Positions 3,168 through 59,410 of a stretch of 64,000 bases of DNA are shown one piece after another. Position 1 is the stretch's first letter, and each line of letters begins with the position of its first letter. The stretch covers positions 186,001-250,000 of the forward strand of contig NZ_FNPT01000003.1 of the NCBI RefSeq assembly GCF_900107375.1, written 5' to 3'. Source of the DNA: Lysobacter sp. yr284. Its GTDB lineage: Bacteria > Pseudomonadota > Gammaproteobacteria > Xanthomonadales > Xanthomonadaceae. The notes beneath the pieces are model-generated. The model was not told where the DNA came from and did not search any database. It saw only the letters and a list, made by a program, of their open reading frames with translations. Made by a program: the position numbers and the translations under genes.

Positions 3168-3194
3168 TAAGCCGAACGGCGGGAGGGGCGCGCG

Positions 3195-3563
3195 ATGCGC
3201 AGCTTCGAAGGACTGGACGAGGCCGCCCTGGCGGCGTTGGTCCGGCGTTTCTACACGGCGGTGCGCGCCGACGCCGAGCTCGGCCCGGTGTTCGCCGCCG
3301 CGGTCCGCGACTGGGACGAGCACGAGCGCCGGCTGGTCGATTTCTGGACCTCGCTGATGCTCGGCAGCGGCCGCTACCGCGGCAATCCGGCGCAGTCGCA
3401 CCTCGATCACGCCGGCCGCATCCGCCCTGAACTGTTCGCGCGCTGGCTGGCGCTGTGGACGCGCTGCAGCGACGAACTGCTGCCGCCGGCCCAGGCCGCC
3501 GCCGTGCAAGAACGCGCCGGCCGCATCGGCGCGCACCTGCAGCGCCTGCTGGCGCAGGCCTGA
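3195..3563 (+). CDS. group III truncated hemoglobin
   Basis: A 122-residue globin of the truncated 2-over-2 class; the FWTSLMLGSGRYRGNPAQSH segment with its downstream WLALW helix is typical of group III. The His in NPAQSH is the likely proximal heme ligand. GGGAGGGG at 3181-3188 is a strong ribosome site 6 bases before the ATG. Only 41 bases separate it from hmp, so the two are probably one operon under NsrR. Truncated globins beside hmp are thought to bind or detoxify nitric oxide or manage oxygen; the exact job here is inferred from this neighbourhood. Confidence 0.8.
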   Translation: MRSFEGLDEAALAALVRRFYTAVRADAELGPVFAAAVRDWDEHERRLVDFWTSLMLGSGRYRGNPAQSHLDHAGRIRPELFARWLALWTRCSDELLPPAQAAAVQERAGRIGAHLQRLLAQA

Positions 3564-3604
3564 GCGCGCCGCCCGAATCTTTTCCAAGCCAAGGAATCCG
3601 AACC

Positions 3605-4831
3605 ATGAGCACCCCGTTGAGCGAGGCCACCGTGGCCGTCGTCCGCGCCACCGTGCCCGCGCTGGCCGCGCACGGCCCCGCCGTCACCACCGCGATGTAC
3701 CGCCGGCTGTTCCAGGACGAGCGCATCGCCGCGCTGTTCAACCACGCCAACCAGGGCGGCGACAACCCCCAGGCGCATGCGCTGGCCGGCGCGATCCTGG
3801 CCTACGCGCAGCACATCGACGACCTCGGCGCGCTGTCGGCGGCGCTGGAGCGCATCGCCCAGAAGCACGTCGGCTACCACATCCTGCCCGAGCACTATCC
3901 GTTCGTGGCCCGCGCCTTGCTCGGCGCGATCCAGGAAGTGCTCGGCGACGCCGCCACGCCGCAGGTGCTGGCGGCGTGGGGCGAGGCCTACTGGCGGCTG
4001 GCCGACCTGCTCAAGCAGCGCGAAGCCGAACTGCGCGGCGAACTGGCGCAGGCGGTCGGCGGCTGGAGCGGCTGGCGCGAGTTCGTCGTCGCCGGCAAGC
4101 GGATCGAGAACGCCGCCGCCGCCGCGCCGATCGCCTCGTTCGAACTGCGTCCGGTCGACGGCGGCGCGGTGATCGCGCACCGGCCCGGCCAATACCTGAC
4201 CCTGCGCTACCCGGTGCCGGGGCAGGGCCGGATCAAGCGCAACTACTCGATTTCGTGCGGGCCCAATCGCGAGGCCTACCGCATCACGGTCAAGCGCGAG
4301 GCGCACGGCCACGGCGGTTCGCGCCACCTGCACGATGCGATGGGCATCGGCGAGCGCATCGAGCTGACGCCGCCGGCCGGCGATTTCTTCCTGCCCGACG
4401 CGCCGCCGCGGCCGGTGGTGCTGCTGTCCGGCGGCGTCGGCCTGACCCCGATGGTGAGCATGCTCGAAGCCATCGCCGCGCGGCATCCGCAACTGCAGGC
4501 GCACTACGTGCACGGCACCGCCGACGGCGCCAGCCACGCGATGGCCGCGCACGTGCGCGCGCTGGCGCAGGCCCACGGCGGCATCCGCGTCGATACGTTC
4601 TACGCGCAACCCGGCGCCGGCGACGCGCTCGGCCGCAGCCACCAGCGCGAGGGCCTGATCGATACCGACTGGCTGCGCGCCAACGTGCCGTTGCTGGAGG
4701 CCGACATTTATCTGTGCGGGCCGCGCCCGTTCCTGCGCGCGCTGGTGCCGGCGCTGGCGCGCGCCGGCGTGGCGGACGAACGCGTGCACTACGAGTTCTT
4801 CGGGCCCAGCGACGAACGCCTGGCGGCGTAG
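3605..4831 (+). CDS. hmp: flavohemoprotein, nitric oxide dioxygenase
   Basis: A 408-residue flavohemoglobin that uses O2 and NAD(P)H to oxidise nitric oxide to nitrate in the cytoplasm. Order: globin domain (1-140; proximal heme His expected in AQKHVGYHILPEHYP), FAD-binding barrel (about 150-260, with RNYSISCGP for flavin binding), NAD-binding domain (about 265-400, GGVGLTPMVSMLEA and YLCGPRPFLRAL). Length matches the family. AAGGAA is 9 bases before the ATG. It follows the truncated globin in an apparent operon divergent from nsrR, so induction by nitric oxide is expected. Confidence 0.95.
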   Translation: MSTPLSEATVAVVRATVPALAAHGPAVTTAMYRRLFQDERIAALFNHANQGGDNPQAHALAGAILAYAQHIDDLGALSAALERIAQKHVGYHILPEHYPFVARALLGAIQEVLGDAATPQVLAAWGEAYWRLADLLKQREAELRGELAQAVGGWSGWREFVVAGKRIENAAAAAPIASFELRPVDGGAVIAHRPGQYLTLRYPVPGQGRIKRNYSISCGPNREAYRITVKREAHGHGGSRHLHDAMGIGERIELTPPAGDFFLPDAPPRPVVLLSGGVGLTPMVSMLEAIAARHPQLQAHYVHGTADGASHAMAAHVRALAQAHGGIRVDTFYAQPGAGDALGRSHQREGLIDTDWLRANVPLLEADIYLCGPRPFLRALVPALARAGVADERVHYEFFGPSDERLAA

Positions 4832-5025
4832 CGGATCCGCACGCAGCGAGCAGGCGAACGCTGAACGAACGCGCGAACGGATTCGGCGCGGCGGTCTTTT
4901 CCTCGTCGCCGGCATCGGGTACAAGTGTCGGCGTCGGGCGCGCAGGGGGGGCGCCGCGGTCTGTCGATCGCGTCGCCGCGTCGCGGTCATGGATGTCTGT
5001 CGTCGCCTATGGATAAGGAGCTCTC

Positions 5026-6273
5026 GTGCGTCCCTGCGTTCTTGCTTCCCGCATTCTTCCTCTCGCTTTGCTGATCGCCGCGGCCGGCGGCTGCGGCCGC
5101 GGCGACGCGCCGCCCGGATCCGCCGCGGCGCCCGCCGGCGAACCGGCCGCGTCCGCGCCGGCGTCCGCGCACGATGCGGCCGACGCCGACACCGACACCG
5201 ACGCGCAGAAACAAGCCGATGCGATCGCCGCGCAGTTTCCGGCGATCCCGGTGATCGTGGTTCCGGAAATCCTCGGCGTGTCGCCGGCGCAGCGCGCGCT
5301 GGAATCGGCGATGGCGCCGGTGCTCGATCCCATCGCCGGCGTCAGCGTCTCGCCCGCGCGCTGCAGCACCGACGGCGCGTTGTTGAACGACGCCGGCATC
5401 ACCAGCGTCGATGCGCAGGGCAATGTCAGCCGCAACGGCGATCAAGGCATCTTCAAGATCGCCGCCGACGGCAGCGGCACCGCCAACTACGAAGGCGGCC
5501 TGATCACGGTCAACGCCGACGGCAGCGGCAGCATCAACGGCGATGGCGGCGACGAAGACGGCGAGGGCGGCGCGCTGGTGCGGGTGGAGGCCGACGGCTC
5601 GGGGTCCTACAACGGCCCGGCCGGCGTCATCACCCTGGACGGCAAGGGTGGCGGCACCTGGAACGGCGACAGCGGCCTGATCCGCAACAACGGCGACGGC
5701 AGCGGCAGCTGGAACGGGCCGCAGGGGCTGGTGAAGATCGACAGCGACGGCAGCGGCACCTGGAACGGCCCGCTCGGCCTGGTGGTGGTCAACGGCGACG
5801 GCACCGGCCGCATCGGCGCGCCGGCGCAGGCGGTCAAGCTGCCGCCGTTGCCGAAGGTCGCGCCGGCCGGCCGGTTCCCGCCGATGAAGAAGTTCGCGCC
5901 GCCCGGCGCGCCCTGCGGTTACCTGATCACCCTCAACGACCGGGTGCTGTTCGACTTCGACAAGTCCGACATCCGCAGCGATGCGGCCAAGGTGCTCGAT
6001 ACGCTGGCCGCCGCGCTCAAGGACGTGCGCAGCGCGGGCATGGAAGTCGGCGGCCACACCGACGCCAAGGGCAGCGACGACTACAACCAGGCGCTGTCGG
6101 ACCGGCGTGCGCAGGCGGTGGTGGCGGCCTTGCGCGAGCGCGGCGCGGCGCAGCAGGCCACGGCCAAGGGCTACGGCGAAGCGCGGCCGGTGGCGCCGAA
6201 CGAGATCGGCGGCCAGGACAATCCGGGCGGGCGCCAGCTCAACCGCCGGGTCGAGATCTTCGTGCGGACGTGA
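5026..6273 (+). CDS. OmpA-like lipoprotein with 17-residue repeats
   Basis: A 415-residue outer-membrane lipoprotein. It starts at GTG 5026, 5 bases after AAGGAG. A lipoprotein signal ends at Cys23 (LLIAAAGGC). Residues ~140-264 hold seven degenerate repeats, the last four exactly 17 residues each (pattern GL-x4-DGSGTWNGP), likely a beta-helix or beta-ladder. Residues ~298-415 form an OmpA peptidoglycan-binding domain (VLFDFDKSDIR, GGHTDAKGSDDYN, LSDRRAQAV, NRRVEIFV). The lipid anchor would hold the outer membrane while the OmpA domain grips the wall, with the repeat block between. The next gene follows after 64 bases and may be co-transcribed. Confidence 0.85.
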   Translation: MRPCVLASRILPLALLIAAAGGCGRGDAPPGSAAAPAGEPAASAPASAHDAADADTDTDAQKQADAIAAQFPAIPVIVVPEILGVSPAQRALESAMAPVLDPIAGVSVSPARCSTDGALLNDAGITSVDAQGNVSRNGDQGIFKIAADGSGTANYEGGLITVNADGSGSINGDGGDEDGEGGALVRVEADGSGSYNGPAGVITLDGKGGGTWNGDSGLIRNNGDGSGSWNGPQGLVKIDSDGSGTWNGPLGLVVVNGDGTGRIGAPAQAVKLPPLPKVAPAGRFPPMKKFAPPGAPCGYLITLNDRVLFDFDKSDIRSDAAKVLDTLAAALKDVRSAGMEVGGHTDAKGSDDYNQALSDRRAQAVVAALRERGAAQQATAKGYGEARPVAPNEIGGQDNPGGRQLNRRVEIFVRT

Positions 6274-6337
6274 GCCCCGGCGCCGTCGATCCACGGCGCA
6301 TCGCGACGACTTCCCCGCAACCAGCAACGAGGTGAGC

Positions 6338-6727
6338 ATGAAAATCGCCAGCGTATCGGTCGTGTGCATCGGCCTGGCCCTGCCGGTGAGCGGCGCGGCC
6401 GCGGATTTCAGCCTGGGCTACGACGTCGACCGGGTGCCGGCGGCGCAACTGAGCGTGCAGGCCTGCAATGCGGCGATCGGCCGCGGCGCGGCCGCGCTGG
6501 GTTACGCCGTGCGCGCCAACCAGGACCAGAAGACCCTGACCCTGCACGTGTCCGGACCGCGCCAGGAAGGCCGCTCGCTGGTGGCGTACTGCCTCGCCGC
6601 CGGGACCCAGACCGCGTGGGTGGTGCAGGCGTTCGACTACTCCGGGCCGGGCCTCAGCGAACCCGGCGTGATCGCCAGGAAGGTCGCCGGCGAGATCCGC
6701 AAGGCGGTCAAGCCCGCCGCGCGCTAG
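6338..6727 (+). CDS. small secreted protein of unknown function
   Basis: A 129-residue protein with a signal peptide (MKIASVSVVCIGLALPVSGAAA). The mature part opens with DFSLGYDVDRVPAAQLSVQAC and has two cysteines that could pair. It reads like one of the DUF-only periplasmic families common in Xanthomonadaceae (DUF6180 is a possible match from memory), and no function can be assigned. GAGG at 6329-6332 serves as ribosome site. It follows the OmpA-like lipoprotein closely and may share its transcript. Confidence 0.65.
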   Translation: MKIASVSVVCIGLALPVSGAAADFSLGYDVDRVPAAQLSVQACNAAIGRGAAALGYAVRANQDQKTLTLHVSGPRQEGRSLVAYCLAAGTQTAWVVQAFDYSGPGLSEPGVIARKVAGEIRKAVKPAAR

Positions 6728-7048
6728 TCGGCGGGCAATGCTCGGCGGCTGGGCGGGAGGGCGGGCGGTCAAGCCCGATGCCCTGCGATCGGGCGATACC
6801 GCCGAGTGGTGAGGCCCAGTGGTAAGGCCTTCAGGCCCCACGCTCTTCGAACGGATGGCCGCGTCGGCAACGGCGGATTCCCGCCGTAAACACCGTTGTC
6901 CTTGCCGGCCCGGCGCCTTCGGTCGCGACACGGCCGAATCGCGCCGGCGCTGGCCTATACTGATCGCCCGCGCCGGCCCCGCCGCGCGCCTCGTCCGCCT
7001 CAAGCCGCCGCCAGAGGAGTCCTCCTCCCTCTGCCGGAAGCGCTCGCC
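6728..7048. other. intergenic region before the TonB receptor
   Basis: No gene is convincing here. A 7-bp stem (GCCCGAT 6773-6779 with ATCGGGC 6788-6794) may end the upstream transcript. A TATACT hexamer at 6956-6961 could be a -10 box for the receptor, but no good -35 or Fur site accompanies it. Confidence 0.4.
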
Positions 7049-9256
7049 GTGCACGTCGAATCCCCCCTTGCCCCCGTGTTCCCGCCGCATGCGCGCGGCC
7101 TGCCGTGCACTGCGCTCGCCGCCGCCCTGGCCGGCGCGCTCGCGCTCGCCGCGCCCGTCGCCGTCCGCGCCCAGGACACGGCCGCCAACCGCGCGCGCGA
7201 TGCGCGCCGGCCCGATCCGACCGACCTCGATACGGTCGAAGTCAAATCCAACCAGCTCGGCAGCCTCACCGAAGGCAGCGGCTCCTACACGCCGGGCACC
7301 ATCGCCACCGCGACCCGGCTGGTGCTGACGCCGCGGCAGACGCCGCAGTCGATCAGCGTGATCGGCCGCCAGGAGATGGACGACTTCGGCCTGACCGGCA
7401 TCGACGACGTCATGCGCGTCACCCCCGGCATCAGCATCGTCACCTACGACAGCGAGCGCACCGAGTATTACGCGCGCGGCTTCGCGATCCAGAACTTCCA
7501 GTACGACGGCATCCCGATGCAGCGCGATTCGGCGTTCTCGGCCGGCAACACGCTCAGCGACACCGCGATCTACGACCGCATCGAAGTGCTCAAGGGCGCG
7601 ACCGGCCTGCTGACCGGCGTCGGCGATCCCGGCGCGACCATCAACCTGATCCGCAAGAAACCCACGCGTGCGTTCAAGGGCCAGCTCGGCCTGGGCGCGG
7701 GCTTGTGGGACGAATACCGCGGCGAGCTCGACGTGTCCGGCCCGCTCAGCGAAAGCGGGCGGGTGCGCGGGCGGGCGGTGGCGGTGCGCCAGGACAAGCA
7801 CGGCTACGGCGAGCGCTACCAGCGCAGCACCGAGGTGCTGTACGGCATCCTCGAGGCCGATCTGAGCGACGACAGCCTGCTCACGCTCGGCGCCGATTAC
7901 CAGAACAGCGACCCGCGCGGCTCCAGCTGGGGCGGCATTCCCTTGCTCGATGCCGACGGCGGGTTCTACCGGGTGCCGCGCTCGTTCAACAACGGCGCCG
8001 ACTGGAGCCGTTGGCGCCAGTACACCCGCACCGGTTTCGCCACGTTGGAGCACCGCTTCGGCGACGGCTGGGTCGCCAAGCTGCAGCTCAACCATCAGGT
8101 CAACGGCTACGACGCCGCGCTCGGCGCCGCCGCCGCCGGCCACCCGGACCCGCGCGACGGCAGCGGCGTGTCGCTGTGGCTGGGCAAGTACGTCGGCGAG
8201 ACCGTCGCCAACGCAGCCGACGCCTACCTCAGCGGCCGCTTCGGCTGGTTCGGGCGCGAACACGAGGTGGTGGTCGGCGCCAGCGTTTCGCGCAAGCACT
8301 GGACCGGCACCGGCTATTTCGCTCCGGCCGACTATCCGCAACAGGTCGCCGACTACCGGCGCTGGAACGGCGACATTCCCGAACCGGCCTGGCAACACGG
8401 CTTCGACAACGACCAGGTGACCCGCGAGAGCGGCGCCTACGTGGTCGGCCGCTTCGACCTGGCCGATCCGTTCAAGCTGATCCTCGGCAGCCGCATCGCC
8501 AACTACAAGACCTACGGCATCGACGAGAGCGGGGTGGTGGTGCCGTACGCCGGCGCGGTCTACGACCTCAATGGCTATCTGTCGGCCTACGCCAGCTACG
8601 GCACCATCTTCAAGCCGCAGGCCGAGCAGGACGAGCGCGGCCGCGCGCTCGACCCGCGCGAAGGCGAGAACTACGAGGTGGGCCTGAAAGGCGAGTTCTT
8701 CGACGGCCGGCTCAACGCCAGTGCCGCGGTGTTCCGCCTGGACCAGGACAACTACCCGGTGCCCAGCGGCGGCAAGACCCCCGCCGGCGGCGACGCCTAT
8801 CGCGCCCTGCAGGGCGTGCGCACGCAAGGCTACGAACTGGAGCTGTCCGGCGAGTTGCGGCCGGGCTGGCAGATCCAGGCCGGCTATGCGCACAAGCTCG
8901 CGCGCCAGAACGGCGCCAAGGTGTCCACGCTGGAGCCGGAAGACCAGTTCAGCGCGCACAGCAGCTACCGCTTCGACGGCGCGCTCGACGGCCTGACCGT
9001 CGGCGGCGGCGCGCGCTGGCAGAGCAGCAGCTTCGGCCCGGTCGGCGCGCCCGGCGGCGGCACCCTCGAGCATCGCACCCGGCCGTACTGGCTGCTCGAT
9101 GCGATGCTCGCCTATCGCTTCGACGAAAAGGTTTCCGCGTCGCTCAACCTCGACAACCTGCTCGACAAGCGCTACTACACGATCTTCGACGTCTACAGCA
9201 CCTACACCTGGGGCGAACCGCGCAGCGTGCGGGTGTCGGTGACGTACCGGTTCTGA
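7049..9256 (+). CDS. TonB-dependent siderophore receptor (FhuE/FpvA-like)
   Basis: A 735-residue outer-membrane receptor that brings ferric siderophores into the periplasm using TonB energy. The GTG at 7049 gives a signal peptide (ALAAALAGALALAAPVAVRAQ); upstream in-frame starts only add Arg/Pro-rich sequence. TonB-box region LDTVEVKS; plug domain about 75-220 with TPQSISVIGRQEMDDFG, ARGFAIQNFQYDGIP and IEVLKGATGLLTGVGDPGA; the rest is a 22-strand barrel ending SVRVSVTYRF with the terminal aromatic residue. The plug motifs resemble FhuE/FpvA-type hydroxamate or pyoverdine receptors, so the ligand is probably a foreign siderophore. No transport partner is adjacent. Confidence 0.9.
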   Translation: MHVESPLAPVFPPHARGLPCTALAAALAGALALAAPVAVRAQDTAANRARDARRPDPTDLDTVEVKSNQLGSLTEGSGSYTPGTIATATRLVLTPRQTPQSISVIGRQEMDDFGLTGIDDVMRVTPGISIVTYDSERTEYYARGFAIQNFQYDGIPMQRDSAFSAGNTLSDTAIYDRIEVLKGATGLLTGVGDPGATINLIRKKPTRAFKGQLGLGAGLWDEYRGELDVSGPLSESGRVRGRAVAVRQDKHGYGERYQRSTEVLYGILEADLSDDSLLTLGADYQNSDPRGSSWGGIPLLDADGGFYRVPRSFNNGADWSRWRQYTRTGFATLEHRFGDGWVAKLQLNHQVNGYDAALGAAAAGHPDPRDGSGVSLWLGKYVGETVANAADAYLSGRFGWFGREHEVVVGASVSRKHWTGTGYFAPADYPQQVADYRRWNGDIPEPAWQHGFDNDQVTRESGAYVVGRFDLADPFKLILGSRIANYKTYGIDESGVVVPYAGAVYDLNGYLSAYASYGTIFKPQAEQDERGRALDPREGENYEVGLKGEFFDGRLNASAAVFRLDQDNYPVPSGGKTPAGGDAYRALQGVRTQGYELELSGELRPGWQIQAGYAHKLARQNGAKVSTLEPEDQFSAHSSYRFDGALDGLTVGGGARWQSSSFGPVGAPGGGTLEHRTRPYWLLDAMLAYRFDEKVSASLNLDNLLDKRYYTIFDVYSTYTWGEPRSVRVSVTYRF

Positions 9257-9261
9257 GCGCA

Positions 9262-9296
9262 CACCGGCGGCGCGGGACGCGCCCGCGCCGCCGGTG
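9262..9296. terminator. 15-bp perfect hairpin between convergent genes
   Basis: Arms CACCGGCGGCGCGGG (9262-9276) and its exact complement (9282-9296), loop ACGCG, lying between the stop of the TonB receptor and the stop of the convergent gene. The symmetry and position suit a bidirectional terminator, but there is no T-run. Confidence 0.55.
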
Positions 9297-9304
9297 CGGC
9301 GCGA

Positions 9305-10048
9305 TCAGCGCGTCGGCGGCGAAAGGTCGAGCACGTCGATGAAGCCGGTTTCGGTCACGCAGGTGGTATTCATGCAGGCGCGGGTGTAGGTCGGCAAGGC
9401 GCGCACGTTCTGCTCGATGCACGTGACCAGCAGGATCACCGATTCGCTCCCGCCGGCGGGGACCGGCGTGGTCTGTTCGATCGTGCAGCGATCGTTGTCG
9501 AGCGAGGTCTTGGCCGAACCGGTGCCGCCGGTTTCGCTGGAATAGCCGGCGCCGCCCACGGCCTGGAAGTTTTCTCCGCGCGGCGCGGCGCCGCCGGGCG
9601 CGGCGGCATGGGCGAAGTCGTCGGAGGCGTCGGCGCGCGCCGCGTGTCCGGCTTGGGCGGCGGCGTTCGCCGGCGGCCGCGGGCTGGGATGGAACAGGCC
9701 GTCGACGATGACGCCGGGCGTGCCGGCCGCGGCCGCCGGCAGGGTGCAGGCCAGGCTGCCGGCGGCGTCCGCGCTGCCGAGGACGGTTTCGCCGGCCGCC
9801 GGCGCGCCGCCGACGAGTTCGCACATGCGTTCGTGGTAGCGCCGGGCCGGCGTGGCTTGGCGGTCGTAACGGTAGACCAGCGCGCCGTCGCCGCGGCGGG
9901 TCAGGAGCTGGGTCGCGACGAGACTGCGATCGTGCGCGTCGATCCAGCGCACATCGCGTTGCAACGGCGCGGCGGAGGGCGCCGCGCCGGCCTGGGCCGC
10001 GGCGAACAGCGGGAACATCACGAGCGTAGCGAATGCGAGCGTTTTCAT
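9305..10048 (-). CDS. secreted protein of unknown family (paralogue B)
   Basis: A 247-residue exported protein (signal peptide MKTLAFATLVMFPLFAAAQAGA) with GGAG before the ATG at 10048. It is a clear paralogue of the next gene on the minus strand and has the same length. Shared landmarks are WIDAHDRSLVATQLLTRR, LVYRYDRQ, the conserved block ENFQAVGGAGYSSETGGTGS, LDNDRCTIEQ, and a cysteine-rich tail (LVTCIEQNVRALPTYTRAC, TTCVTETGFIDVLDLS). The spacing of cysteines suggests disulfides in the periplasm or outside. The family is not recognised and no catalytic motif is seen. Confidence 0.7.
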   Translation of the reverse strand: MKTLAFATLVMFPLFAAAQAGAAPSAAPLQRDVRWIDAHDRSLVATQLLTRRGDGALVYRYDRQATPARRYHERMCELVGGAPAAGETVLGSADAAGSLACTLPAAAAGTPGVIVDGLFHPSPRPPANAAAQAGHAARADASDDFAHAAAPGGAAPRGENFQAVGGAGYSSETGGTGSAKTSLDNDRCTIEQTTPVPAGGSESVILLVTCIEQNVRALPTYTRACMNTTCVTETGFIDVLDLSPPTR

Positions 10049-52071: not shown

Positions 52072-52258
52072 GGCGAAAGTCCTGCGGGGGAGGCAGCAGC
52101 GCTGCGGTGACGCACATGCTAGGCAGCGGGCGAGGGCGGGCTAAGACCCGATCCTGGCCGGTCCTTGCCCATTCCTATCGAGCCGGCGCCGGCGCCCCGC
52201 GCCGGCCGGTGCGGCGGCGCTATAGTCCTTGCCTGTTCCGCATAACCTCCCGACCGCC

Positions 52259-53209
52259 ATGTCCGCACCCGATGACGCCGCGCGCCGCGCGCGCATGGTC
52301 GAACTCGTCGCCCGGCTCGCGCCCGGCGAGGGCTACACCCGCTCGCGCCTGGACGCGGTCAGCCTGATGCGCTGCGAGCGGCCGGTGCAGCGCACCCCGG
52401 CGCTGTACGAGCCGAGCATCGTGATCGTGGTGCAGGGCCGCAAGCGCGCGTTCCACAACGACCGCGCTTACGTCTACGACGCCCAGCATTACCTCGCGCT
52501 GGCGGTGCCGCTGCCGTTCGAGACCGAGACCGAGGCCAGCGCCGACGAACCGATGTTCGGCATCGCCCTGCGCATCGACCCGGCCGCGATCGCCGAACTG
52601 GCGTTGTCGCTGGACCGGATGCGCCCCGACAGCGAGGTGCCGCCGGCGACGATGGTGGCCTCGCCGATGGACGAGCGCATGAGCGACGCCGCCGTGCGCC
52701 TGCTCGAAGCGCTGTGCGATCCGGCCGAAAGCGCGCTGCTGGCGCCGGCGATCGCGCGCGAGATCGCGTTCCTGGCGCTGACTGGCGAACAGGGCGGCAG
52801 CCTGCGCGCGGCGATGGCGCAGGGCGGCCATTTCGGCCGCATCGCCCGCGCGCTGCGGCGCATCCACGACCAGTACGACCGCAAGCTCGACGTCGCCAGC
52901 CTCGCCGGCGAAGCGAGCATGAGCGTGCCGGCCTTCCATGCGCGCTTCAAGGCGGTCACCGCCGCCTCGCCGATCCAGTACATCAAGGCCATGCGCCTGC
53001 ATCAGGCGCGCCTGCTGATGATCCGCAACGGCTGCGCCGCGGCCGACGCGGCGCGCCGAGTCGGCTACGAGAGCGCGTCGCAGTTCAACCGCGAGTTCAA
53101 GCGCATGTTCGGCCGGCCGCCGCTGGAGGAAGCGCGCGAGTTGCAGCGGATCCTGCGGGTGTCCGAGCCGGTGCAGGCGACCGCCGGCCGCGCCGCGCCG
53201 CCGTCCTGA
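52259..53209 (+). CDS. AraC-family transcriptional regulator
   Basis: A 316-residue regulator with an N-terminal AraC-type cupin (PSIVIVVQGRKRAFHNDRAYVYD, LALAVPLPFETE) and two C-terminal helix-turn-helix motifs (VASLAGEASMSVPAFHARFKAVTAASPIQ split here as VASLAGEASMSVPAFHARFK, and AADAARRVGYESASQFNREF). The N-terminal part is of the cupin_6 type seen in regulators of SDR and aldo-keto reductase genes. The Met at 52259 gives a normal family start; the frame extends 10 residues further. Divergent from the SDR, its likely target. Confidence 0.87.
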   Translation: MSAPDDAARRARMVELVARLAPGEGYTRSRLDAVSLMRCERPVQRTPALYEPSIVIVVQGRKRAFHNDRAYVYDAQHYLALAVPLPFETETEASADEPMFGIALRIDPAAIAELALSLDRMRPDSEVPPATMVASPMDERMSDAAVRLLEALCDPAESALLAPAIAREIAFLALTGEQGGSLRAAMAQGGHFGRIARALRRIHDQYDRKLDVASLAGEASMSVPAFHARFKAVTAASPIQYIKAMRLHQARLLMIRNGCAAADAARRVGYESASQFNREFKRMFGRPPLEEARELQRILRVSEPVQATAGRAAPPS

Positions 53210-54766: not shown

Positions 54767-55771
54767 TCAGTCCCCGTCCGCGTCGTCGCGGCGCGCGGCC
54801 GGCTTCGGTTTCGTGGCGTGGTCTTGCGCGGGCGCAGCGGCCGCCGCACCGAAGAAGCCATGGCTGCGCGCCCAGTGCGCGAACAAGCGCGGCCACTGCG
54901 CGACCAGCGTCCCCGGCGCGCCCAGTCCCCAACTGTGGCCGCCGCGCTCGAATGCGTGCAGTTCCACCGGCACGCCGATGGCGCGCGTCGCCTGGAACAT
55001 CGCCAGGCTGTGGCCGATGTCGGCGATCGGGTCGTCCGCCGCCTGGGCCAGGAACACCGGCGGCATGTCGCGGCGCACGTGCGCTTCGACCGAATACGCC
55101 TCGACCGCGTCGGCCTGTTTGCCGAGTTCGCGGCGCGAACGCGTGGTGTCCAGCGGCGGCTTCAGCGACACCACCGGATAGATCATCGCCAGGAAGTCCG
55201 GCCGCGCGGATTCGCGGTCGGCCGCGTCCAGCGGCGGGTACAGCGGCGCGTCGAAGCGGGTGCCGGTGATGCCGGCAAGATTGCCGCCGGCCGAGAACCC
55301 GACGACGCCGATACGCTGCGGGTCCACGCCCAGCTCCGCCGCGCGCGCCCGCATCAGCCGCACCGCCCGCTGTCCGTCCTGGAACGGCGACACCGGGCTC
55401 CAGCCGTCGCCGGGCAGGCGGTAATACACCACCGCCGCGGTCACGCCGATGGACTGCAGCCACAGCGCGGTCGGCCGCGCCGCGCCGCCGATCTGGATGC
55501 GGAAATAGCCGCCGCCGCCGAAGATCACCGCGGCGCTGCCGTTGGGGCGTTCGGGGCGGTAGATCTCCATGCGCGGCTGCGAAATGTTCGACACCGCGCC
55601 GCTGGCGCTGCCGTCGCGTCCGGTGCGCTCGGGGCCGCGCACCGGCGATGGCCATCGGTCGGCCGGCCACAACGGGACAACTTCGGGCGCCGGCGGCGCG
55701 GCGCGCGCAGGTCCCGCCGCGAGCGCGAGGAACACAGCGACGGCGCAAGTCCAGGCGAGCGCGGTTTTCAT
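54767..55771 (-). CDS. exported alpha/beta hydrolase (acetyl-xylan esterase-like)
   Basis: A 334-residue exported esterase of the BD-FAE/dienelactone-hydrolase type. Signal peptide ALAWTCAVAVFLALAAGPARA; oxyanion region IFGGGGYFRIQIGG (in place of HGGG); elbow VGFSAGGNLAG with the Ser; acid in AQAADDPIADI; His in FERGGHSWGLGAPG. The FERGGHSWG ending is typical of carbohydrate acetyl esterases. It is upstream of the porin on the same strand and may be co-transcribed, hinting at use of a carbohydrate ester. The last 30 residues are a charged extension. Confidence 0.83.
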   Translation of the reverse strand: MKTALAWTCAVAVFLALAAGPARAAPPAPEVVPLWPADRWPSPVRGPERTGRDGSASGAVSNISQPRMEIYRPERPNGSAAVIFGGGGYFRIQIGGAARPTALWLQSIGVTAAVVYYRLPGDGWSPVSPFQDGQRAVRLMRARAAELGVDPQRIGVVGFSAGGNLAGITGTRFDAPLYPPLDAADRESARPDFLAMIYPVVSLKPPLDTTRSRRELGKQADAVEAYSVEAHVRRDMPPVFLAQAADDPIADIGHSLAMFQATRAIGVPVELHAFERGGHSWGLGAPGTLVAQWPRLFAHWARSHGFFGAAAAAPAQDHATKPKPAARRDDADGD

Positions 55772-55909
55772 CGGGCGGCGTCTCCGGCGGGTGATCGCGA
55801 CAGCGCAGTTGTAGGCGCAGCCGGCGGCCGCGCCGATAGCCTATTGGTACTACCGGCCGCGCGCCGCGGCTCGCGATGAAGATCGTGACCGGCGTGTGCC
55901 GATATGCAT

Positions 55910-55939
55910 TTGACAGCCATCGAGAGCGCTGTCTAGAGT
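55910..55939 (+). promoter_or_regulatory. sigma-70 promoter of the lanthipeptide precursor
   Basis: A perfect -35 TTGACA (55910-55915), an 18-base spacer and TAGAGT (55934-55939) as -10, followed by a ~145-base leader to the precursor ATG. This is one of the clearest vegetative promoters in the window. The remainder of the 317-base gap holds no gene. Confidence 0.65.
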
Positions 55940-56088
55940 CGGGCGGTGGTCGTTCGCAGTAGTCCCGCCCGTGCGGGGCGCCCGCGGCACAGCGGCCACG
56001 ACGCTTGAAATCGAGGCCTGGCACGGCGGATTTCGATGCATGCGACACCGCTGTCTGGGCGACATCCAGTACTCAGGGAGGAACAGCA

Positions 56089-56274
56089 ATGCAAAGCAAC
56101 GATCTGGTGTCGGGCTGGCTCACCGGCGCCGAAACGGTCATGGGCTTCGACAACCCGGCCGGCCCGCTCTACCTGGAAGGCGAGAACGCGGTCGAAGACG
56201 CGGCGCGCGCGCCGATCACCCACTCCACCTCGATCTCGACCTGCCCGACCGGCCGCTGCTACTGCTGCATGTAA
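56089..56274 (+). CDS. lanA: class II lanthipeptide precursor peptide
   Basis: A 61-residue peptide with an acidic leader of about 41 residues (LVSGWLTGAETVMGFDNPAG, ENAVEDAARA) and a Ser/Thr/Cys-rich core, PITHSTSISTCPTGRCYCCM, containing seven Ser/Thr and four Cys with the cysteines at the C-terminus. LanM would dehydrate Ser/Thr and join the Cys into up to four thioether rings. GGGAGG at 56076-56081 is 7 bases before the ATG. The leader lacks the double-Gly site cut by LanT-type transporters. It is followed by a lanM gene on the same strand. The core has no close match that I can name. Confidence 0.85.
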   Translation: MQSNDLVSGWLTGAETVMGFDNPAGPLYLEGENAVEDAARAPITHSTSISTCPTGRCYCCM

Positions 56275-56292
56275 GCCGGATCGGAACCGGCT
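56274..56292 (+). promoter_or_regulatory. small hairpin at the precursor stop codon
   Basis: AGCCGG-N7-CCGGCT directly at the TAA of the precursor gene. A second pairing (CGGATC near 56277 with GATCCG near 56315) competes with it. Either could protect the precursor message from 3' decay. Confidence 0.4.
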
Positions 56293-56338
56293 GGGGTCCG
56301 GTCTGATCCGACGGTTCGTCCCCGCCGGTCGCTAGTTT

Positions 56339-56371
56339 CGGCGCGCAGCCTTCGCGGGCTGCGCGTCGTTT
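56339..56371 (+). terminator. intercistronic terminator between precursor and lanM
   Basis: A 12-bp stem (56339-56350 with 56357-56368, one G-T pair, loop TTCGCG) followed by TTT. Partial termination here would give more precursor than synthetase, the usual need in lanthipeptide operons. Confidence 0.6.
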
Positions 56372-56548
56372 CGGCGCCGCCTCGGCGACGAGCTCGCTTC
56401 GCGCCCGAACCCGCCACGCCGCCGCATCCGCTGCGAATCCGACATTCACCGACACCGCGCCGCGTTCACGACGCGCCGCGGCGATGCGTGTCGCGCGCAC
56501 CGCACCAACCGCAATCTTCCATACCGTCTGCCAAGGATCGTCGACACG

Positions 56549-59410
56549 ATGGCCGAACCCGAGATTCAGGAGGGCTTCGGCCCGATCATCGACCACTTCA
56601 CCGCCGCCGCGCGCGCCGCGCTCGACGCCGAACTCGCCGCGCGTTGCGGCGACCTCGATCCGCGCGAAACCGAACTGATCCGCGCCGCCGGCGCGCACGC
56701 CTTCTACGCCAGCGCGCGGCTCAAGCTCAACCGCGTGCTGCTGCTGGAACTGCACGCCGCCAAGCACCTGGGCGAACTCACCGCCGCCGACGAACCCGGC
56801 CGCTTCGCCCAGTTCGTCGCCAAGGCGCTGAGCCCGCAGTTCGCGCAGACCGTCGAACAGCGCTACCCGCCGCTGTCGCAGCGCCTGCAACGCTCGCTGC
56901 GCCAGCAAGGCGCCGCCATCGCGACCCTGGCCGCGCGCATCCACGCCGACCGCGACGCGCTCGCGGCGCTGATCGGCCGCGCGCCCGGCCGGCTGCTGTC
57001 GATCAAGCTCGGCGAGGGCGACCTGCACGCCGGCGGCCAGACCGTGGCCAAGCTCGCGTTCGAAGGCGGGCAGGCGATGTACAAGCCGCGCTCGCTGGTC
57101 ATCGATGCGATTACCGACGGCTTCCTCGGCCAAGTGTTCGAACACGACGGCCGCATCCGCGTGCCCGCCGTGCTCGACCGCGGCGACTACGGCTGGGCCG
57201 CGTTCGTGCAACACCGTTACTGCGACGGCGAGGCCGAACTGCGCAACTTCTACCGCGGTCTCGGCCACTGGCTGGCGCTGCTGCGCCTGCTCGGCGGTAC
57301 CGACATCCACCTGGAAAACCTGATCGCCGCCGGCCCGGTGCCGGTGGTGGTCGACGTCGAAAGCCTGTTCGCCCCGGAACGCCCGGCCGCGGCCTCGCGC
57401 TTCGGCCAGGCCTACGACCGCGCCCAGGACCTGATCCAGAACTCGGTGCTGCGCACCGGCATCGTCCCGTTCCGCTCGCGGGTGATGGGCGCCGGCCAGG
57501 CCGACCTGTCCGCCGCCGGCTCGCTGCCGGGCGAACAGCCGCAGCTGCAGGTCCCGGTGATCGTCGGCGACGGCACCACCGACGCGCGCGTGCAGATGGT
57601 CGAGACATCGATGGACATCTCGCAGAACCATCCCAGCCCGAACCCCGAGGTGTCGCGTTACTGGGACGAGATCAGCGACGGCTTCCTCGAAGCCTCGCAG
57701 CGCCTGCGCGAGCTCGACGCCGACGGCCGCCTCGCGCAGTGGCTGTCCGCGTTCGAAGGCTGCCAGGTGCGCGACGTGCGCCGCACCACCCAGCTCTACG
57801 TCGAAGTCGGGCGCATGCTCTGGCACCCGGCCTCGCTGCACGAAGAAGACAAGGCCATCGAACGCGCGCGCAAACTGTTCGCGGCCAGCGCCGGCGGCCC
57901 GCCGCCGACGCCCGAACAGATCGCCAGCGAAATCGACGACCTGCGCCACGGCGACATCCCGCTGTTCGTCGCCCCGCTGAGCGCCGCGCGCATCGCCCAG
58001 ACCCTCGACGGCTGGCGCCGGATGCGGATCGAACTGGAAGACATGACCATCCGCAGCTCGCTGGTGGTGACCCAGCTCAACAGCGGCGCCGACGGCCCCG
58101 GCGAACGCGACAGCCGCTCGCATTACGCCCGCAACGTCCGCCGCGACAACCTCGAACCACGCCGGCGCGCGCTCGCCGCCGACATCGTCGAACGCCTGCT
58201 ACGCGTGTCCGTGCGCGGCGACGACGGCTCGGTGACCTGGATCTCGCCGGAAAGCTTCGGCGGCTCCGGCTGGCACGTACAACCGCTCGGCGGCGACGCC
58301 TACTTCGGCCTCGGCGGCATCGCCGTCGCCCTGGCCGGCTACCGCCACGAAGTGCACGCCGGCCGCGCCGACCCCGTCGCCGGCCTCGACGAAGCGCTGG
58401 AAGGCGCGATCCACTCCTTCCACACCCTGACCGAAGTCGACACCCCGCCGACGGTCGGCGGCCTCAGCGGCGACGGCAGCCGCATCTGGGCGTGGTTGGT
58501 TCTGCACGGCCTGCTCGACCGCCCGCAACTGCTCGCCAACGCCGTAAAGAGCGCCGAAACCCTGGAACGCAAAGGCTTCGACAGCGACCCGAGCCTGGAC
58601 CTGTCCGACGGCAGCAGCGGCGCCATCGTCCCGCTGATCGAACTCGCCCGCGCCAGCGGCGACCCGCGCTGGCTGGCCCTGGCCGCGCGCGCCGGCGAAC
58701 GCCTGGAAACCCTGGCCCAACGCGACGAACACGGCTTGGTCTACTGGCGCCTTCCGGGCTACGACGACCCCATTGGCGGCTTCGCCCACGGCGCCTACGG
58801 CATCGGCTGGGCCCTGGCGCGCCTGGCGCTGAGCGACGCCGGTAGGGCCGAAGACCGCCAGCGCTGGCGAGCGCTCGCCGACGGCGCTTTCGCGTTTCAG
58901 GATTCGATGTATGACGCCGCCGTCGGCAACTGGCGCGATGTGCGTATGGTCAACACGATCAACTTTCCGACTTGGTGCAACGGCGGCGTTGGCATTGGGC
59001 TTGCCGCGGCCGATCTCTATGCCCGCACTGGCGACGCCGCTGCGTTACGAGATATGCGCCGCGCGGTGGCGGTGTCGCGGGGGCAGTGGGGATTCACCCA
59101 TACCCTGTGCCATGGCGATTTTTCGTTATGGGAGTTGTTGGCGCGTGGGGCGAAGCTCGATCCGGACGAGTGCGCGGCCGACCTCGAAGAAGCGACCGCG
59201 CAGGTGGTGTCGGCGATTGAGGAGCATGGGATCGTCGGCGGGATTACCCGGCGAGCGTTTACGCCGGGGTTGATGACCGGGCTGGCGGGGGCGATTCATG
59301 GGTTGAATCGGTTGCATCCGGGGTGTGGGGTGGTTTCGTTTTTGTTATCAGAGTTAGGGGTAAGTGATAGTTTCTTAGCTAATCAGCATGAAAAACTTGC
59401 CGAGAAATAG
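56549..59410 (+). CDS. lanM: class II lanthionine synthetase LanM
   Basis: A 953-residue bifunctional enzyme. The N-terminal dehydratase domain (about 80-560, DUF4135, kinase-like) has KLAFEGGQAMYKPRSL, the HWLALLRLLGGTDIHLENLI catalytic stretch and VVVDVESLF; it phosphorylates Ser/Thr and eliminates phosphate. The C-terminal LanC-like cyclase (about 600-953) has Cys810 (PTWCNGGVGIG) and Cys854-His855 (TLCHGDFSLWE) as zinc ligands for thioether formation. AAGGA precedes the ATG. It follows the precursor gene by 274 bases. The last 23 codons are markedly AT-rich, unlike the rest, and run into an AT-rich island. No LanT or LanP gene follows. Confidence 0.92.
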   Translation: MAEPEIQEGFGPIIDHFTAAARAALDAELAARCGDLDPRETELIRAAGAHAFYASARLKLNRVLLLELHAAKHLGELTAADEPGRFAQFVAKALSPQFAQTVEQRYPPLSQRLQRSLRQQGAAIATLAARIHADRDALAALIGRAPGRLLSIKLGEGDLHAGGQTVAKLAFEGGQAMYKPRSLVIDAITDGFLGQVFEHDGRIRVPAVLDRGDYGWAAFVQHRYCDGEAELRNFYRGLGHWLALLRLLGGTDIHLENLIAAGPVPVVVDVESLFAPERPAAASRFGQAYDRAQDLIQNSVLRTGIVPFRSRVMGAGQADLSAAGSLPGEQPQLQVPVIVGDGTTDARVQMVETSMDISQNHPSPNPEVSRYWDEISDGFLEASQRLRELDADGRLAQWLSAFEGCQVRDVRRTTQLYVEVGRMLWHPASLHEEDKAIERARKLFAASAGGPPPTPEQIASEIDDLRHGDIPLFVAPLSAARIAQTLDGWRRMRIELEDMTIRSSLVVTQLNSGADGPGERDSRSHYARNVRRDNLEPRRRALAADIVERLLRVSVRGDDGSVTWISPESFGGSGWHVQPLGGDAYFGLGGIAVALAGYRHEVHAGRADPVAGLDEALEGAIHSFHTLTEVDTPPTVGGLSGDGSRIWAWLVLHGLLDRPQLLANAVKSAETLERKGFDSDPSLDLSDGSSGAIVPLIELARASGDPRWLALAARAGERLETLAQRDEHGLVYWRLPGYDDPIGGFAHGAYGIGWALARLALSDAGRAEDRQRWRALADGAFAFQDSMYDAAVGNWRDVRMVNTINFPTWCNGGVGIGLAAADLYARTGDAAALRDMRRAVAVSRGQWGFTHTLCHGDFSLWELLARGAKLDPDECAADLEEATAQVVSAIEEHGIVGGITRRAFTPGLMTGLAGAIHGLNRLHPGCGVVSFLLSELGVSDSFLANQHEKLAEK

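Follow-up and report, generated by a model that had tools for sequence, protein, structure and literature searches.

The window (the whole stretch of 64,000 nucleotides analysed here, from Lysobacter sp. yr284) carries a predicted lanthipeptide precursor gene, lanA, followed on the same strand and after a gap of 274 bases by a class II lanthionine synthetase gene, lanM (Table 1). LanA belongs to the Pfam family DUF6229 (PF19740, cut-off 25 bits) and has no match in an NCBIfam search. We place the leader at approximately residues 1 to 41 and the core at approximately residues 42 to 61, with the border being a prediction. From Pro42 onward there are seven Ser/Thr residues and four Cys residues, two of which are adjacent, as had been described in an earlier note on this DNA. 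The same note had stated that the leader lacks a double-Gly site, and inspection of the precursor sequence indeed reveals no Gly-Gly ahead of the core.

Table 1. Features of the lanA-lanM locus and its upstream flank, in window positions
Feature	Position	Strand	Evidence or detail
AraC-type regulator	52229-53209		
Divergent alpha/beta hydrolase, adjoining lanA on the opposite strand	54767-55771		Secondary Peptidase_S9 match, 34 bits (cut-off 22.6)
Sigma-70-like promoter, hexamers TTGACA and TAGAGT, 18-nt spacer	55909..55939	+	Consensus scan
Conserved lanA 5' leader, with ribosome-binding site AGGGAGG (56075-56081) at its 3' end	56001..56088	+	
lanA, 61-aa DUF6229 precursor	56089..56274	+	PF19740, 58.9 bits; orthologs; residues 42-61 under purifying selection
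13-pair hairpin between lanA and lanM, then a short T-rich stretch	56339..56368	+	z -5.3
lanM, class II lanthionine synthetase, 953 aa, DUF4135 dehydratase and LANC_like cyclase	56549..59410	+	

LanM matches PF13575 (DUF4135) with 305 bits and PF05147 with 113 bits, which corresponds to a dehydratase fused to a LanC-like cyclase, and it scores 507 bits against TIGR03897 (cut-off 304). The dehydratase motifs DIHLEN and DVES are present, as is the zinc site formed by Cys810, Cys854 and His855, and the DxHxEN, DxE, zinc Cys and Cys-His positions align with those of LicM2. The dehydratase and zinc-site residues are intact, in agreement with the earlier description of a complete enzyme, and the three zinc ligands named in the note are correct. 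Among solved structures, those closest in sequence are LicM2 (6st5) and CylM (5dzt), the only two matches at an E-value of 0.001.

There are 13 loci with this core type, whose pattern is THSTS[IV]STCP[TSN]GRC[YIV]CC[MI], and a search of 20 genus genomes found them in 11; two Luteimonas species have the type as well. Among these orthologs, 33 of the 61 LanA residues are invariant, and LanM is intact at every locus. The core is thus not a singleton but a conserved DUF6229 subtype, and the strain has three more DUF6229-LanM pairs. For the 11 genus orthologs among the 13 (55 pairs, no tree correction), pN/pS rises from 0.18 in residues 42-61 to 0.35 in residues 21-41 and 0.74 in residues 2-20, the last value being inflated by a low pS (0.27). 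Residues 42-61 are therefore under purifying selection. The matches to PF19740 and TIGR03897, together with the low ratio in the core, establish that lanA and lanM are real and are not chance reading frames.

The promoter TTTGACAG...TAGAGT is located upstream of lanA in 12 of the 13 orthologs, and a diverged form is present in the remaining one, L088. There is no second such site in the strain's genome at up to 2 mismatches, and a regulon shared through this promoter was set aside on that ground. A profile of the 5' leader built from the 13 orthologs matches exclusively upstream of the THSTS core type among 61 sequences searched. A defined structure for this leader was set aside (10 consensus pairs, weak covariation), as was any known RNA element, the sole Rfam match being a snoRNA whose score of 21.1 bits falls below the cut-off of 40.

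The hairpin between the two genes is strong (z -5.3). In an alignment of seven of the 13 orthologs, 98.9% of cells are paired and three pairs have changed on both sides; L071, L073 and L079 were left out as near-copies, and L063, L065 and L075 were left out with hairpins of their own that differ in sequence. The stretch TTTTT follows the hairpin in the two Luteimonas, and a consensus terminator scan made no call at the hairpin of the window. This element is likely a partial terminator that would set the lanA:lanM ratio. The promoter, 5' leader and hairpin are conserved along with the gene pair, and the cassette is delimited by the promoter on one side and the end of lanM on the other.

Flanking genes were compared at the 11 genus loci of the THSTS type, at two of which the gene caller missed lanA. 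No gene family beyond lanA and lanM occurs at more than 5 of these loci, which bears out the proposal of a locus that consists of these two genes only. The accompanying claim that accessory genes are absent nearby holds in that none is conserved with the cassette, but an AraC-type regulator and a hydrolase with a Peptidase_S9 match do lie upstream of lanA. Both were rejected as cassette parts because they are not kept at 9 of the 11 loci, the only recurrence being in the sister genome G019. Perhaps the hydrolase, which adjoins lanA and has that secondary match, removes the leader, making this a three-gene locus. We give this idea hardly any credence, since the best Pfam matches of the protein are esterase-like (Abhydrolase_3, BD-FAE) and among the 11 genus loci it recurs only at that of the sister genome. 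A SAM methyltransferase present at 5 of the 11 loci was likewise rejected, as its orientation varies and a 61% identical copy is located elsewhere in the strain's genome. A crude motif screen of the 163 called genes at the 11 loci gave no match to an ABC transporter or subtilase-like motif. An MFS transporter is located beside the L058 locus (by Pfam, with few neighbours examined), and its family is represented at 3 of the 11 loci.

A gene pair near which no gene for a transporter, a protease or immunity was recognised might also be a decaying or silent remnant that is kept by chance and yields no product. According to the available text of a 2024 preprint (PMC11451712), two cultured Lysobacter species yielded only known compounds, which would fit such a remnant. 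Nevertheless, the core pN/pS of 0.18, the intact LanM at all 13 loci and the promoter kept at 12 of them make this explanation unlikely, and we rate it as very improbable. We consider lanA-lanM to be a real, conserved and probably working class II lanthipeptide cassette.

In the whole genome of the strain, DUF6229 is matched four times over the cut-off and twice below it, and DUF4135 is matched six times over its cut-off. All four DUF6229 precursors adjoin a LanM gene, namely at the window locus and at L020, L021 and L022. These three paralogous loci have the same precursor family directly in front of LanM, but their cores are different. In L022, which is of the ACCxC type, the Ser/Thr residues likewise precede the Cys residues, except for one Ser, which is Ile in the ortholog L078. 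The remaining two DUF4135 loci lack a DUF6229 precursor. One of them, L023 (about 6928-9726, minus strand), has a LanM on a very long branch of the tree described below, and the other, L024 (matching G000:C41:47024-47416), is an 882-amino-acid open frame whose partial DUF4135 match scores 34 bits (cut-off 29).

A tree was built from 51 LanM sequences; core classes were labelled by eye, and L109, whose short contig yielded no LanM, was left out. In this tree the 13 enzymes of the THSTS type form one clade with support of 100/100. The three LanMs of the ACCxC type are its sister, with joint support of 100/99, whereas the labelled groups F and G do not form single groups (2 changes each). Tree and core labels suggest that LanM and core type evolve together.

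DUF6229 is found over the cut-off in 16 of the 20 genus genomes searched. In a family-level sample, 9 of 198 genomes match the precursor at an E-value of 1e-5, and seven of these are of the THSTS type by identity (70-100%), including two Luteimonas (L087, L088). The evidence for spread beyond the family is a scan of named genomes with a single pattern for one leader stretch, which gave 27 loci in organisms that include Lysobacter, Luteimonas, Dyella, Rhodanobacter and some actinobacteria and myxobacteria. The DUF6229-like precursors of actinobacteria and myxobacteria (L102, L103, L104, L105, L108 and L109) are mostly beside a LanM gene.

One of the closest known systems is rhodanocin, the LanII product of Dyella sp. 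333MFSha, which resembles the present system in having a DUF6229 precursor, a class II LanM and a gammaproteobacterial host. As described in the available text of PMC9576775, modification of its precursor by its own LanM in E. coli gave 4 dehydrations and 3 rings, which NMR assigned as Thr6-Cys11, Thr12-Cys23 and Cys8-Ser14, with Dhb18 left. The reverse ring from Cys8 to Ser14 and the residual Dhb indicate that the ring logic of DUF6229 peptides is not simply forward. A further resemblance is that the authors identified no native leader protease; AspN was used, and LahT150 did not cut the peptide. They note that DUF6229 spans at least two groups. Rhodanocin has three Cys residues interleaved with Ser/Thr, whereas in LanA the six conserved Ser/Thr residues all precede the four Cys residues, and so the core here lacks the arrangement that gives rise to the rhodanocin ring pattern.

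Genus and precursor family are the same as those of LanA for the peptides mined from 24 Lysobacter genomes in PMC11451712, where 21 of the 27 unique class II precursors are DUF6229 members in six sequence families and where the accessible text reports no product made from them. This set probably includes the THSTS core type, because an L. enzymogenes genome (L083) carries it. The earlier note knew of no product with this core. It had also named a close match to a known lanthipeptide family as refuting evidence; such a match does exist for the leader and LanM, but not for the core itself, five strings of which were not found in a text search of the literature. The core belongs to a family in print and its own product is apparently uncharacterised; in the literature searched we found no report of this peptide being made or tested.

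Residues T44, S46, T47, S48, S50 and T51 and residues C52, C57, C59 and C60 are invariant in all 13 LanA orthologs. Residue 54 is Ser in 7, Asn in 4 and Thr in 2, and Thr54 is the sole core Ser/Thr after the first Cys. Given the four orthologs with Asn, this seventh Ser/Thr is dispensable, and the expected loss of up to seven waters is better stated as six conserved sites. With the conserved Ser/Thr residues all ahead of the first Cys, any thioether must connect one of residues 44-51 with one of the Cys residues in 52-60, and therefore any two rings must nest or cross. Enumeration gives 360 assignments of the four Cys residues to the six Ser/Thr residues, or 240 with at least 2 residues between partners, and the sequence favours none of these over the others.

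Because the six conserved Ser/Thr residues are all N-terminal of the four conserved Cys residues, one possibility is that the product is a four-thioether lanthipeptide wherein each ring crosses or encloses all the others. A two-gene cassette that relies on export in trans would then produce a fully interlocked knot. We put this forward tentatively, as a proposal whose chances fall a little short of even. The same cassette might instead turn the four Cys residues into two or three thioethers, with any remaining Cys present as a disulfide or free thiol and part of the Dha/Dhb retained. The two adjacent Cys residues at the core end are suggestive here, as C-terminal Cys pairs could form a disulfide, which counts against a lanthionine-only structure. 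The retained Dhb of rhodanocin points the same way, as does LanII-2B, a member of a different family for which the available text of PMC9576775 describes one Cys left free. The invariance of four Cys and six Ser/Thr residues in 13 orthologs argues against such a partial outcome, which we consider quite possible while well short of an even chance.

Whatever the number of rings, we hold with high confidence that lanA and lanM form a stand-alone cassette in the DUF6229 group of class II lanthipeptides. LanM would bind the conserved leader (NPAGPL.xEG region), phosphorylate and eliminate Ser/Thr residues in THSTS[IV]ST, and use its zinc site to couple up to four Cys residues to the dehydrated positions. 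The resulting thioethers would each link the Ser/Thr block on the N-terminal side with the Cys block on the C-terminal side, and all would overlap one another. An attenuating hairpin would probably leave LanA in excess of LanM, and proteins encoded elsewhere would carry out leader removal and export. The product is probably secreted and may have antibacterial activity. Further points against this mechanism are that the hairpin drew no terminator call and that LanII-2E, with seven Ser/Thr and four Cys residues, lost only a single water in E. coli according to the available text of PMC9576775. In a genus that is studied for antibiotics, the cassette offers a target that is both defined and conserved. 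Its natural variation reveals which Ser/Thr residues are needed, such that simple co-expression could address the ring question.

The cassette also raises the question of how Lysobacter exports DUF6229 peptides and removes their leaders without a recognisable LanT. The strain's genome has a single Peptidase_C39 match, a 392-amino-acid frame without an ABC domain, and so neither a C39-peptidase ABC transporter in this genome nor a double-Gly leader in the precursor was found. Since this sole match lacks the ABC domain, the functions of export and leader removal are most likely encoded elsewhere, as the earlier note had proposed. The match is located at L082 (around 3190-7622) amid frames rich in repeated Ala/Gly/Asn motifs, an arrangement that we take to be reminiscent of functional-amyloid loci. 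A trypsin-like cut after LanA residue 40 was rejected as a general solution, this residue being Arg or Lys in 11 orthologs and Met in 2.

A gene for an M13 (neprilysin-like) metallopeptidase is found near lanM at 8 of the 20 genus DUF6229 loci whose core is of another type, which fall into two separate LanM groups, and at 0 of the 11 genus loci of the THSTS type. It is a candidate leader peptidase. The strain's genome has six M13 matches, so this proximity may be due to chance, and our literature search found no text that unites lanthipeptide, leader peptide, M13 and metallopeptidase. The M13 gene lies downstream of lanM on the same strand at L057, L060 and L070, and is convergent on the opposite strand at L021, L062, L064, L074 and L080.
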